Source of the DNA: a virus
Length of the DNA stretch: 23,706 nucleotides
Virus record (IMG/VR): IMGVR_UViG_3300027659_000212
Coordinates: 1 to 23,706 of that record
Direction: 5' to 3' (one strand)
In this document: positions 822-18,672 of the stretch, piece by piece
Layout: every line of letters begins with the position of its first letter
Position numbering within the stretch: the stretch's first letter is position 1
Translations under genes and position numbers: made by a program
Notes under the pieces: model-generated
Told to the model about the DNA's origin: nothing
The model's database searches: none
The model's input: the letters and a program-made list of their open reading frames with translations, nothing else

Positions 822-1802
822 TTAGAAAGGAGTCTGACTCATTGAAACTCTAGACCAAATGTCTGTTAAATTGTCAACATAGTCTTGTCTACAGTAATAC
901 ATGTAATTATTGTCAAACGCTATAGTACCTTTTTTATCGCCGACAGCACCAAAGCTATTTGCTGGTGCAGTTGCTACTGTTACTATCAGTGTACCAACAG
1001 TTGCATTACCTGTAACTGTTAAATTAGCCAATGTACCAACACTTGTGATATTAGGTTGTGCGGCTGTTGTTAATGTACCTACTAAGTAGTTACCACTAAT
1101 AAGATTGGCACCCGAAACTTCTGAGCCAGTACCGCTTAATTTAATATCTGTATTAGCACTAAGAGTAATATTTGCTGTTGAAAAGGTTGCAATATTTGCA
1201 GTTCCACCCACACTTATTGTTACATTGCTGTTAGCGGTAATAGATACATTACTGTTTCCACTAATAATGTTGCTAGGTTTACCCCAAGACAAATCAGACC
1301 CAGTATTATACAACCAACCTTCTGCGTCTTGAGGTAAACTTGCTCCTCCTCCAACAGAGGATGTCCAACTTAAATTACCGGTTCCATCAGTAGATAATAA
1401 GCCGCCACTCATTCCGCCTGAAATTGAAATATTTGCAGGGGCTCCTAAACTTAGTTTAATATTTTTATTAGGGCCTAATTTTGTTCCGTCCCAGTTAGTC
1501 CAAGACGTACCGGTTGATGCATTGCCGTTTGCTACTAATAGTTGACCAGTAACAATATTAGCTGTGCTAAGATAAGTATTACTAGAACCTTCTACTTTAG
1601 CAAATTGTAATGTTGAGACTTCAGTTAATATTTCAGTTTGTGTAGTTGTTCCACCATCCGGAACAGGTACTAATATAGGATCGTTTCCTATATATACTCG
1701 TTGAGTATCTGATGCAAATCCTATTTCCCCCGTGTCTAATTGGGGCAAATCTATATTTGCACCTACTCTGTGAATTATTTTACTTATTTGTACAATGGCC
1801 AT
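822..1802 (-). CDS. Tail-fibre-like virion protein (326 aa)
   Basis: The N-terminus (MAIVQISKIIHRVG, then DLPQLDTGEIGFASDTQRVY at about 18-37) matches the short attachment module found at the start of many phage fibre and tropism proteins, where P-Q-L-x-x-G-E-x-G-x-x-x-D-T-x-x-x-Y/W-I-G-N is typical. The middle is low-complexity Ser/Thr/Asn/Gly repeat, including the fibre-type segment LTTAAQPNITSVGTL near residues 243-257. The C-terminus (GDKKGTIAFDNNYMYYCRQD) resembles a module common at fibre ends in aquatic phages. Late expression is supported by GATAAATA at 1827-1834. The ATG at 1802 is preceded by GAAGA about 8 bases upstream. A stem-loop overlaps this start and is listed separately. Fibre assignment is from motif resemblance; receptor specificity cannot be read. 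Confidence 0.65.
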   Translation of the reverse strand: MAIVQISKIIHRVGANIDLPQLDTGEIGFASDTQRVYIGNDPILVPVPDGGTTTQTEILTEVSTLQFAKVEGSSNTYLSTANIVTGQLLVANGNASTGTSWTNWDGTKLGPNKNIKLSLGAPANISISGGMSGGLLSTDGTGNLSWTSSVGGGASLPQDAEGWLYNTGSDLSWGKPSNIISGNSNVSITANSNVTISVGGTANIATFSTANITLSANTDIKLSGTGSEVSGANLISGNYLVGTLTTAAQPNITSVGTLANLTVTGNATVGTLIVTVATAPANSFGAVGDKKGTIAFDNNYMYYCRQDYVDNLTDIWSRVSMSQTPF

Positions 1803-1828
1803 AGTTTAATCTTCAGTTGATTAAACTA
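1802..1828 (-). promoter_or_regulatory. Perfect 10-bp hairpin covering the start of the fibre-like gene
   Basis: TAGTTTAATC (1802-1811) and GATTAAACTA (1819-1828) are perfect inverted repeats with a 7-base loop. In a minus-strand transcript the 3' arm ends on the A of the AUG at 1802, and the GAAGA ribosome-binding sequence lies in the loop and arm. The late octamer (1827-1834) overlaps the 5' arm, so a late transcript starting near 1821 would lack most of that arm. Confidence 0.7.
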
Positions 1829-1834
1829 TTTATC
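1827..1834 (-). promoter_or_regulatory. T4-type late promoter (GATAAATA)
   Basis: GATAAATA on the minus strand, 25 bases before the ATG at 1802. It overlaps the upstream arm of the hairpin at 1802-1828, so initiation would occur inside the inverted repeat. Confidence 0.7.
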
Positions 1835-1839
1835 ACGAT

Positions 1840-2526
1840 TTACAAGAACTTCATATAGAATTGTTCACACTTTTTGAACCACATATCAGTATATTTGTCA
1901 AATTCAGTACCCTCAACGATGAATTCTTGGTATTCATTGGCAGCTGAACACATAAAAATAACACCCTTACGTATCTTTGTTCCATGCACTTCATTGTGTG
2001 CGTTAGCATAGGCTGCCAGCTGTACAAAATAGTCATCAATCCACTCACGTTTCTTGGGCTTGTTTGTCTGCTTGTGATCCATGATAGCTTCTGCATTATC
2101 ATGTACACCACACAAGTCAGTTGTACCAGCATAAACTGACGGGAAATATACTGGAACTTCTGTACCCCAGTATTCATTACACTTACTAAGTCCTTGAGCA
2201 ATGATGCTCTGAGCCATTTGATGACTTTGAATACTATATGGATTGCTTCCCGGTGTGCCTATTTCACCTGTCTTAATATAATCTTCAAGCCACTTGTGCA
2301 TTCGTGTACCACGACCTGCGGCTTCAGTTGTTATCTCTTGTGCTTTTTGGGGACCGACTCGTTTGCGCCACTCCATCAATGCTTTTTTGGATTCTTCTGA
2401 TTTAGTAGCATCTAGTATTGTAGTGACTGAGGGAAGTTTATTACCATCGGGAGTTGCATATCTACGACCTTCTGGTGTGTCAATGCGTTTGAGTGGTTCG
2501 TATTTGAATTTGTTGGGATTGTACAT
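1840..2526 (-). CDS. PD-(D/E)XK exonuclease, RecB/Cas4/MGME1-like (228 aa)
   Basis: Predicted metal-dependent nuclease acting on DNA ends. Visible family motifs are, in order: RGTRMHKWLEDY with H77 and E81, the helical His motif of RecB/Cas4-type nucleases; E123 in GTEVPVY; D137 in GTTDLCG (the Asp of the PD motif); D150-H-K152 in IMDHKQTN (the D/E-x-K motif); and Q169 in QLAAYA (the trailing Gln/Tyr motif). All expected catalytic positions are present, so it should be active. Its length is typical for a single-domain phage member. It lies among late virion genes but has its own consensus sigma70 promoter 9 bases upstream, so it is probably expressed early and used in recombination, replication or host DNA degradation. 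There is no Shine-Dalgarno at ATG 2526, consistent with a leaderless message. Confidence 0.85.
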   Translation of the reverse strand: MYNPNKFKYEPLKRIDTPEGRRYATPDGNKLPSVTTILDATKSEESKKALMEWRKRVGPQKAQEITTEAAGRGTRMHKWLEDYIKTGEIGTPGSNPYSIQSHQMAQSIIAQGLSKCNEYWGTEVPVYFPSVYAGTTDLCGVHDNAEAIMDHKQTNKPKKREWIDDYFVQLAAYANAHNEVHGTKIRKGVIFMCSAANEYQEFIVEGTEFDKYTDMWFKKCEQFYMKFL

Positions 2527-2529
2527 TTA

Positions 2530-2563
2530 CTAAGATTATACACTATCTTAGATTAATTGTCAA
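2530..2563 (-). promoter_or_regulatory. Consensus sigma70 promoter with inverted repeat over the -10
   Basis: On the minus strand: TTGACA (2558-2563), a 17-base spacer, TATAAT (2535-2540), both hexamers perfect, then 8 bases to the ATG at 2526. An inverted repeat CTAAGAT/ATCTTAG (2530-2536 and 2545-2551) straddles the -10, as an operator would. In read-through RNA the same repeat would form a hairpin just before the start codon. Confidence 0.8.
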
Positions 2564-2889: not shown

Positions 2890-3612
2890 TTAACGCTTAG
2901 TTCTGCCTACTGCTGGCATAGGCTCTTCTGGTTCTTCTGCTGGCATCTCAGGTTCTGCCATTGCGTCAGCACCCATTTCTTCACCACCTAGATCAGGTCC
3001 CATCTCGCCACCTGCCATTGGATCGGCTCCCATACCATTATCCATGCCTCCTGCATCCATACCAAAGCCGCCGCCTTGACCAGTCACAACACCTAATGCG
3101 CCTGTAAGACCTGTCTTAGATTGTGTTAGTGCGGCTTGTAGTGAAGTCAATGCCTCTGTTACTTGGCTACTAAATTGTTCACCTTCACTTGTTCCAAACT
3201 CACTGTTAACACCGTCAACAACTGCTGGTAATTCTTTTACTAGCATATCACTAACTTGTTCAATCATCTTTTGCATTGAATCAACCATTTCTTGTGCGGC
3301 TAGAACAACTTGAGATTTCTCAACTTCTTCATTCTCAACAACAATACGTGGATTGTACATTGGCATAGTTCTTAAATCACCGTAATGATGATTTAGTGCT
3401 TGTTCCATGAACACAAGTTTCAAGTAAGCAGGATTTTGTTCTCCACTCATTGACTTGTTTTTTGCTTCACTCATCAATCCTTTGACTTTTTTAAGCATAT
3501 TTTTAGTCTCATATAGACCTAGCTTCTCAACATTAAAGGATGTGTTGAAGTGTTCTTTTAGAGCTTGTTTAGCTACTGTTGTTGGTTTAGCGTTAAATTC
3601 GGTTAGTTTCAT
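2890..3612 (-). CDS. Conserved virion-associated protein with acidic Gly/Met/Pro tail (240 aa)
   Basis: It begins MKLTEFNAKPTTVAKQALKE. The first 150 residues are predicted mostly helical, with a conserved-looking segment around 72-110 (EEVEKSQVVLAAQEMVDSMQ). The C-terminal 70 residues are a low-complexity acidic tail rich in Gly, Met, Asp, Glu and Pro that ends in the basic VGRTKR. Helical core plus acidic disordered tail fits a scaffold, prohead-core or internal protein, and similar proteins are called virion structural in cyanophage and pelagiphage genomes. A late octamer at 3638-3645 and an AGGA ribosome-binding site before ATG 3612 support late expression. Precise function is not known. 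Confidence 0.6.
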   Translation of the reverse strand: MKLTEFNAKPTTVAKQALKEHFNTSFNVEKLGLYETKNMLKKVKGLMSEAKNKSMSGEQNPAYLKLVFMEQALNHHYGDLRTMPMYNPRIVVENEEVEKSQVVLAAQEMVDSMQKMIEQVSDMLVKELPAVVDGVNSEFGTSEGEQFSSQVTEALTSLQAALTQSKTGLTGALGVVTGQGGGFGMDAGGMDNGMGADPMAGGEMGPDLGGEEMGADAMAEPEMPAEEPEEPMPAVGRTKR

Positions 3613-4141: not shown

Positions 4142-4589
4142 CAATCACCTCAAAGTATATATTTCTTAATTCAGGAGTAACATCTAAAAATGTTGGTAAT
4201 TTATTAAATTCATTACCAACTTGAATCATGGGTACACCTTCACAATCAGAGAATAGATATCCTAAATTAGCTATACCATCATTAAACATATCTTCCCCAA
4301 CAATAGTAAAGCTAAATGACCACATTGTACAAGGTTCTTCTGATTCTAATAAAAATCCAAATCTTTCTGTGTCACTTAGTGTAACTTCTTCTTTTTCAGG
4401 TGTTGTAATTTCTTCTGGTAACCCTCTTAAGGAGATTATTTGAATAATAGTATCAAGATTACATTGTGTATTTCTTTGTTGTTCCCACAATGTTATCTTT
4501 TCCGCAACAGGAGCGGGAGTGTTTCTTCTGTTTGTAATTCCTGTTTTAGTTATATCAAACAGGGTGTAGCATTTAATTTTTAATGACAT
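4131..4589 (-). CDS. Conserved aquatic-phage protein of unknown function (152 aa)
   Basis: It begins MSLKIKCYTLFDITKTGITN, followed by a helical stretch with many Gln and Asn (residues 25-55). The C-terminal half includes GYLFSDCEGVPMIQVGN and ends in strand-like ELRNIYFEVIDGQ. Proteins with the CYTLFDIT start and the VPMIQ/NIYFEV end recur beside virion genes in marine T4-like phages. No catalytic motif is seen. The only exact TATAAATA octamer in the window ends 4 bases before the ATG, and there is no Shine-Dalgarno. A transcript from it would be leaderless or nearly so. An intrinsic terminator for the preceding unit lies just upstream, so this gene heads its own unit. Confidence 0.6.
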   Translation of the reverse strand: MSLKIKCYTLFDITKTGITNRRNTPAPVAEKITLWEQQRNTQCNLDTIIQIISLRGLPEEITTPEKEEVTLSDTERFGFLLESEEPCTMWSFSFTIVGEDMFNDGIANLGYLFSDCEGVPMIQVGNEFNKLPTFLDVTPELRNIYFEVIDGQ

Positions 4590-4593
4590 ACAC

Positions 4594-4601
4594 TATTTAT
4601 A
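4594..4601 (-). promoter_or_regulatory. Exact T4 late promoter octamer TATAAATA
   Basis: TATAAATA on the minus strand, 4 bases before the ATG at 4589 and just after the terminator at 4605-4632. Initiation 5-6 bases downstream would fall at the start codon. Confidence 0.75.
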
Positions 4602-4640: not shown

Positions 4641-5345
4641 TTAATTTGGGATACCCATCATTCCCTTAATACTCGGCATTTCTACTTTAGCCTTATTAGT
4701 ATTTGCTTGCGCTATTTTTAACATTACTGGACCAAGTGCTAAATCAGCCTGGTCATTCTTTCCAGTAACAGCTTGGTCTAATGCTTGGTCTAATGCAAGT
4801 TTATATACCCCGGTATTATAGTTATTTCTTGTTAGATAGTCCTGAGTAAACTTATTATAATCAAACTGAGGATCTGTTTTTGCGTTACGTAATTTGGTTG
4901 AAAAGTTATTGATAAAAATTTGATCTGCTCTCTTATCCACTCTATTATTAATAGGGCCTGTTCGTCTTGCAGGGGCTGACAGGCTTCTGCCCTGGATAGC
5001 TTTATTAACATACTGTAGGTATACATCAGGAACATCACCGGGTGAATGCGCTCCAGATTGAATTGCATCAGCCCAAGAATTAATATGCTGAATGTCAGTT
5101 TCATCTGGTTTAGAACCTCCATGAAGACTGTATTGCATTGCTTGTTGTTGCGCTTGTGCAGCCTGTTGTTGTTGAGCATACGCCGGTGATGCAGGGGCAG
5201 CCTGCTGTTGTGGAGCCTGCTGTTGTGGAGCCTGCTGTTGTGGAGCCTGCTGTTGTGGAGCCTGCTGTTGCTGACGTTTAGCCCGTTGTCTTTGTCGGCG
5301 GGATCCGCCCCCCTCAATTAAAAAATCAAACTCAGAGAATCTCAT
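4641..5345 (-). CDS. Candidate packaged internal protein: capsid-targeting-like N-terminus, Arg/Gln-rich segment (234 aa)
   Basis: The N-terminus MRFSEFDFLIEGGG resembles the T4 capsid-targeting sequence of internal proteins (MKTYQEFIAEA). It contains L-I-E followed by G at residues 9-12, which fits the T4 prohead protease (gp21) preference for (L/I)-x-E before a small residue. Cleavage there would expose a very basic stretch (SRRQRQRAKR, 15-24). That is followed by a Gln/Ala/Pro repeat (QQQAP units, about 25-50) and further Gln/Ala-rich sequence to about 70. From about 80 on, the protein looks folded and helical with no enzyme motif I recognise. The ATG (5345) overlaps the stop of the upstream gene by 14 bases. 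The unit has a late octamer and ends at an intrinsic terminator. Packaging with DNA is inference; gene and lateness are well supported. Confidence 0.6.
   Translation of the reverse strand: MRFSEFDFLIEGGGSRRQRQRAKRQQQQAPQQQAPQQQAPQQQAPQQQAAPASPAYAQQQQAAQAQQQAMQYSLHGGSKPDETDIQHINSWADAIQSGAHSPGDVPDVYLQYVNKAIQGRSLSAPARRTGPINNRVDKRADQIFINNFSTKLRNAKTDPQFDYNKFTQDYLTRNNYNTGVYKLALDQALDQAVTGKNDQADLALGPVMLKIAQANTNKAKVEMPSIKGMMGIPN
5201..5270 (-). repeat. 15-bp tandem repeat encoding (QQQAP)n
   Basis: Four exact copies of the 15-mer cctgctgttgtggag follow one another from 5201 to 5260, with a further 10-base partial copy to 5270. Decayed relatives lie to the left (5161-5200). The unit is in frame and encodes Gln-Gln-Gln-Ala-Pro, so copy-number change would alter linker length without a frameshift. 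Confidence 0.95.
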
Positions 5346-5580
5346 CTTTTTTCCTCAAACTTTTTGAGAATCTATCCTGATCACGTGCTTTAATAGCACT
5401 AAGCAATTTTCTCTCTAGTATCTGAGCCTTTTCACTGTCATAGTGCTTGTTAATCATTTCCAATAGATTAATTGCGCTAGTGATGATATTATGGGCACGG
5501 CTTTCAATAATATGTGACGTATCACGATTATTTCCAATTGCTTCTAATTCTTCTAAAAGACTACGGGTTTTTCTTTGCAT
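5332..5580 (-). CDS. Conserved small helical phage protein (82 aa)
   Basis: It begins MQRKTRSLLEELEAIG and continues as two or three amphipathic helices, ending in KSLRKKDEIL. Close relatives with the RKTRSLLEEL start are frequent in marine T4-like phages, but I know of no function. ATG 5580 is preceded by TTAGGATC. The late octamer at 5602-5609 overlaps the stop codon of the helicase gene. It is the first gene of a late two-gene unit with the candidate internal protein and overlaps it by 14 bases. Confidence 0.6.
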   Translation of the reverse strand: MQRKTRSLLEELEAIGNNRDTSHIIESRAHNIITSAINLLEMINKHYDSEKAQILERKLLSAIKARDQDRFSKSLRKKDEIL

Positions 5581-18643: not shown

Positions 18644-18672
18644 ATTATATATGAGAATCCAATTACTGTCAA
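18644..18672 (-). promoter_or_regulatory. Perfect consensus sigma70 promoter for the AAA+ gene
   Basis: Minus strand TTGACA (18667-18672), 17-base spacer, TATAAT (18644-18649). The leader of about 25 bases contains TTGATTGATTG and AAAAGGGG before ATG 18612. Confidence 0.85.

Follow-up and report, generated by a model that had tools for sequence, protein, structure and literature searches.

The nuclease/fibre junction

The window (the whole stretch of DNA analysed; 23,706 nt, positions 1 to 23,706 of IMG/VR record IMGVR_UViG_3300027659_000212) is a viral fragment whose minus strand carries T4-type replication genes for a DnaB-like helicase, a primase, a UvsX-like recombinase and a single-strand binding protein. 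On the same strand an exonuclease gene is followed by a fibre-like gene; the features of this junction, in order of transcription, are:

2535..2563 (−): sigma70 promoter TTGACA-N17-TATAAT, exact consensus; expected RNA start on the nuclease AUG or immediately upstream of it
1840..2526 (−): exonuclease gene upstream of the putative gate, PD-(D/E)XK-type, phrog_298
1827..1834 (−): octamer GATAAATA of the late promoter; as the T4 late consensus TATAAATA, but with G at −13
1819..1829 (−): upstream arm ATAGTTTAATC; overlaps octamer positions 6–8 and would extend to roughly position +3 in the late transcript
1821 (−): expected late transcription start, 6 nt past the octamer by T4 spacing
1812..1818 (−): loop, AACTGAA, of which the final three bases open a weak Shine-Dalgarno-like GAAGA; purine-rich in most relatives
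1801..1811 (−): downstream arm GATTAAACTAT; covers the spacer and AU of AUG
822..1802 (−): putatively guarded gene, 326 aa, fibre/adhesin-like, Mtd_N-like N-terminus

The presence of a hairpin and octamer at the fibre start (ATG at 1802-1800) is confirmed. The initial annotation had given a perfect stem of 10 bp (1802-1811/1819-1828) that ended on the A of the start codon and held the ribosome-binding sequence; the stem is there and ends inside the AUG, but it has 11 bp (1801-1811/1819-1829) and the pairing extends to the U. It is the spacer and AU that are covered; the ribosome-binding sequence is only the weak GAAGA (1814-1810), straddling loop and stem. The late octamer was correctly placed at the outer edge of the stem, GATAAATA occupying 1834-1827 and overlapping the arm. 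The whole window contains three perfect inverted repeats of at least 10 bp with a 3–12 nt loop, and the two besides this one resemble terminators. A stem of at least 10 bp ending on the A of ATG arose in 0.05% of shuffles of the nuclease/fibre intergenic stretch. No Rfam family matched 1801-1834 at gathering score; the sole match in the window was RF02980 (freshwater-2 RNA, a cis-regulatory motif) at 718-793 (−), forming the leader of a structural-type gene (1-720) that has its own late octamer at 809-802, upstream of this leader.

The stem does not have the make-up of an intrinsic terminator: it is AT-rich and followed by ATGGCC, with no T run. Stem-loops often stabilise mRNA or form 3' ends and terminators, and this one might be a 5' stem stabilising the late mRNA, or the 3' end or terminator of the nuclease mRNA; the expected late start, however, would keep no more than some 3 nt of that upstream arm in the RNA, and past the stem comes the AUG in place of a T run, so that such a role is very improbable.

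The first 40 residues of the 822-1802 product resemble the Mtd_N domain (24.6 bits, below the 26.3 cut-off); related proteins exceed the cut-off, and the C-terminus of one is an endosialidase chaperone (Peptidase_S74). In relatives the protein measures about 270 to 1585 aa (leaving aside five shorter frames of 116–193 aa in the same listing), its start constant and its ends changing. From this pattern and these matches the product is therefore taken to be a fibre- or adhesin-like protein. The nuclease stop lies 37 nt upstream of the fibre ATG, with no terminator-like run in between. The consensus promoter reported at 2535-2563 is exact; 8 nt separate its end from the ATG of the nuclease (2526). 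A second, near-consensus sigma70 promoter (TTGACA, then TATAAT) stands at 18672 (−) before a phrog_1250 gene, whose leader and Shine-Dalgarno sequence are normal.

Conservation and covariation of the stem

Relatives, set 1: 80 IMG/VR loci were found through the nuclease gene, without selection on octamer or stem. GATAAATA lay directly past the nuclease stop in 79 of the 80, and at least 7 of 8 pairs were present in 78 of the 79 octamer-bearing junctions; the check for loss of pairing in close relatives, which the initial annotation had named as refuting its hairpin-gated start, was thus passed. The two exceptions: L027, junction disrupted; L016 (identical with L244), fibre ATG 6 nt past the octamer, no stem. 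L243 likewise has its fibre ATG about 6 nt past the octamer and no stem; in L016 and L243 the hairpin is predicted from the spacing to have been replaced by a leaderless start. Against the gate, there are relatives without the stem (L195, L154, L131, L137, L200 and L221). A DNA search of isolate phages for the region gave only short nuclease matches, and a search of the genome collection gave no relative.

Relatives, set 2: a pattern scan on octamer and fibre start, not on the stem, gave a total of 79 distinct segments. The covariation alignment comprised 77 distinct junctions; the octamer invariance in it is partly imposed by the search pattern, the unbiased count being that of the nuclease-anchored set. 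Paired cells made up 88.1%, as against 62.6% (sd 1.4) with partners shuffled and 19–62% (at most 62.5%) with the arms slid; cells changed on both sides numbered 188 (82.9 shuffled), and the covariation score was 0.565 (0.177 shuffled). None of 500 shuffles reached the observed values of pairing, co-change or covariation. The compensatory changes that the initial annotation had proposed to look for were found as double-sided changes at seven of nine pairs, while in the remaining two an octamer base faces the AUG or its preceding base. RNAalifold, unaided, returned 7 of the same pairs, every one with double changes, and on the nuclease tree co-changes per position came to 13.6 in register and 8.3–10.2 slid. 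This covariation settles the hairpin as real.

Varied arms (AGTTTAATC, AGTATAATC, AAGTGTAA, AAGTGTGA, AATGTAAT) are each matched by their complement, and the register is constant: position 7 of the octamer pairs with the A of AUG across the relatives. With arm sequence free and register fixed, it is therefore the structure, not the sequence, that is conserved. An inverted repeat overlapping a promoter might also act as DNA, namely as the operator through which a dimeric regulator would act on the late promoter; a palindrome in this position is what such an operator would look like, but its arms would not be expected to vary while the pairing stays, nor would their spacing change with loop length as it does here, and we regard this reading as highly unlikely.

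Internal control: the next late gene upstream (MKLT.., 2890-3612), which has the same octamer, showed 26% paired cells against a null of 23% and no stem (71 distinct junctions). Of the 345 other octamer-start segments, 11 had a stem of at least 8 bp, with 4.2 expected by chance. A gate as a general late-gene feature was rejected, with at most a few other candidates among the 345; by these two controls it belongs, in essence, to the fibre gene in these phages. Possible further hairpin gates over late octamers: L095:727, L087:9034, L116:7692, L099:9079, L089:16764 and L091:8744; candidate genes MAKIV.., MATPD.., MDIGAG.. and MTQKV.., with too few variants for covariation. In the window, a further GATAAATA at 5609-5602 (−) coincides in part with the end of the helicase gene, stands ahead of a small gene (5332-5580) and has no hairpin; as a late gene behind an early-type gene without a stem, 5332-5580 also indicates that gating is not general.

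Predicted early and late transcription across the junction

Late promoter: GATAAATA was commoner than its letters reversed in 16 of 16 relatives searched (77 to 22 in a 524-kb record, 35 to 5 in a 303-kb record), and in relatives it precedes structural-type genes with ordinary leaders. A gp55-like late sigma is encoded by four large relatives (G001–G004; E about 1e-21), the window itself being a fragment. Late octamers of T4 span −13 to −6 (PMC2988020), for which reason the late +1 is expected near 1821, inside the upstream arm and two bases before its end.

Predicted folding: read-through RNA of the window junction, −10.9 kcal/mol (z −3.6); RNA starting at 1821 by T4 spacing, no structure (0 kcal/mol). 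The median predicted cost of opening −9 to AUG was 10.0 for read-through RNA, 1.7 for late RNA and 3.6 for a shuffled arm. By these models the AUG region would be sequestered in read-through RNA and free in late RNA.

The hairpin at the fibre start very probably serves as a translational gate of the T4 type, set before a late gene. Transcripts begun at the nuclease's early promoter would run on into the fibre-like gene with both arms, and the helix over spacer and AUG would leave ribosomes unable to start; late in infection, polymerase with a gp55-like sigma would start about 6 nt downstream of GATAAATA, and the resulting RNA, without most of the upstream arm, would have an unstructured leader from which the fibre could be translated. 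The observations behind this reading are the octamer, the stem, its covariation, the geometry, the late sigma of relatives and the predicted folds. The interpretation given in the initial annotation is well supported by the retained stem, the compensatory changes, the gp55-family sigma, the octamer excess and the T4 spacing.

The same sequestering stem, with the nuclease stop just 37 nt before the ATG, would also suit a coupling hairpin, melted by the ribosome that finishes the nuclease so that fibre and nuclease would be produced jointly, with no silencing of the fibre. The stop, however, is 10 nt from the first pair, and 10 nt or more in most relatives (octamer gaps of at least 5); given the footprint of a ribosome, one terminating at the nuclease stop hardly reaches the stem. 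Coupling would leave the fixed overlap with the late promoter unexplained, and is considered improbable.

Early promoter: a comparable nuclease promoter was present at the corresponding position in 52 of the 67 relatives that were scored; in most relatives the −10 box ends 6–8 nt before the ATG, with no Shine-Dalgarno sequence, and because the promoter is so close to the AUG the early nuclease mRNA is predicted to be leaderless. Many relatives have tandem TATAAT boxes (TATAATCAACTATAATTGACTATAATG) at this promoter; others have a palindromic promoter (TTGTACTACA..TGTAGTACAA). Stem and promoter occurred both in 50 relatives, stem only in 10, promoter only in 2 and neither in 5 (Fisher p 0.005); this hints that the two occur together, the counts not being phylogenetically independent, as the tree gave just four independent contrasts, too few for a test.

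Octamer-to-ATG distances were bimodal: a tight class of 4–6 nt (41 GATAAATA, 32 TATAAATA), almost none at 9–15 nt, and a leadered class of 16–30 nt. Examples of the tight class: window 4589-4601 (−); L106:15009, L089:4935, L107:16753. None of the 13 octamers in 100 kb of T4 belonged to it. From the distance, octamers 4–6 nt before the AUG are predicted to give leaderless late mRNAs. If the leaderless nuclease start and the fibre gate are both as read here, the nuclease would not be translated from late read-through RNA, nor the fibre from early read-through RNA; it is conceivable, as a tentative view, that in this phage group genes standing in strings of mixed early and late type are translated solely from RNA of their own promoter, by way of hairpin gates and leaderless starts.

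Distant junctions and known hairpin-gated genes

Salicola phage SCTP-2 (cultured, 440 kb) encodes gp55 and has an exonuclease gene (6) and, after it, gene 5, with a start similar to the fibre N-terminus. The gene 6/gene 5 junction TTGCATAAATACTTTAAAATAAAGGGTTTATGCAATG has a predicted fold of −13.9 kcal/mol (z −5.4); its upstream arm contains ATAAATA and its downstream arm takes in the AUG, and a late 5' end would be expected in the loop, just past CATAAATA. The octamer ATAAATAC is not enriched in SCTP-2, and its late promoter is therefore argued from position and gp55 only. The junction shares with ours the gene pair, an ATAAATA within the upstream arm and a stem through the AUG; it differs in arm sequence, and its nuclease start overlaps the preceding gene and has no near promoter. 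No earlier description of this hairpin was found in the literature. Further junctions: L250, nuclease/fibre, arms CATAAATACTT/AAGTATTTATG, −9.1 kcal/mol (predicted); L249, a version of the hairpin that hides the Shine-Dalgarno sequence. In isolates with the nuclease (Atu_ph07, 121Q, XbC2) another gene lies close behind it, and the stretches examined held no such gate.

A hairpin gate was previously known from a handful of genes of T4 and close relatives, and was argued mostly from experiments with T4. The present case puts it to the test in dozens of natural variants: while the sequence changed, selection preserved the fold and the register with the late promoter, so that a timing rule can be read from the DNA of uncultured phages, and SCTP-2 offers an analogous case for testing in a cultured phage.

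The precedents cited in the initial annotation (lysozyme, soc, gene 49 and I-TevI) are borne out by the literature: T4 e, soc, 49, I-TevI-III and segB and Aeh1 mobE are silenced in upstream RNAs by a hairpin, with differing degrees of proof (PMC3014915, PMC2988022); for e the repression is 100-fold (PMC3014915), and the hairpins of I-TevI/II/III, segB and Aeh1 mobE form only when the RNA was initiated upstream, the late promoter of the I-Tev genes adjoining the stem or lying within it (PMC2988022). The probable gate described here is of this known T4 kind and is shared by a large group of T4-like phages that are uncultured. By comparison of sequences, T4 e and 49 likewise have a late octamer overlapping the upstream arm and a downstream arm ending at the ATG; in our case a fibre-like gene behind a nuclease would be guarded, the AT-rich stem extends into the AUG, and covariation is seen over dozens of variants. 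T4 soc is, similarly, a structural late gene among early genes with a stem through its AUG, but its arm begins 2 nt past the octamer, whereas here the arm overlaps the octamer's end. I-TevI/II/III, segB and Aeh1 mobE share the stem that forms only on upstream-initiated RNA and differ in being homing endonuclease genes, some of them intron-borne.
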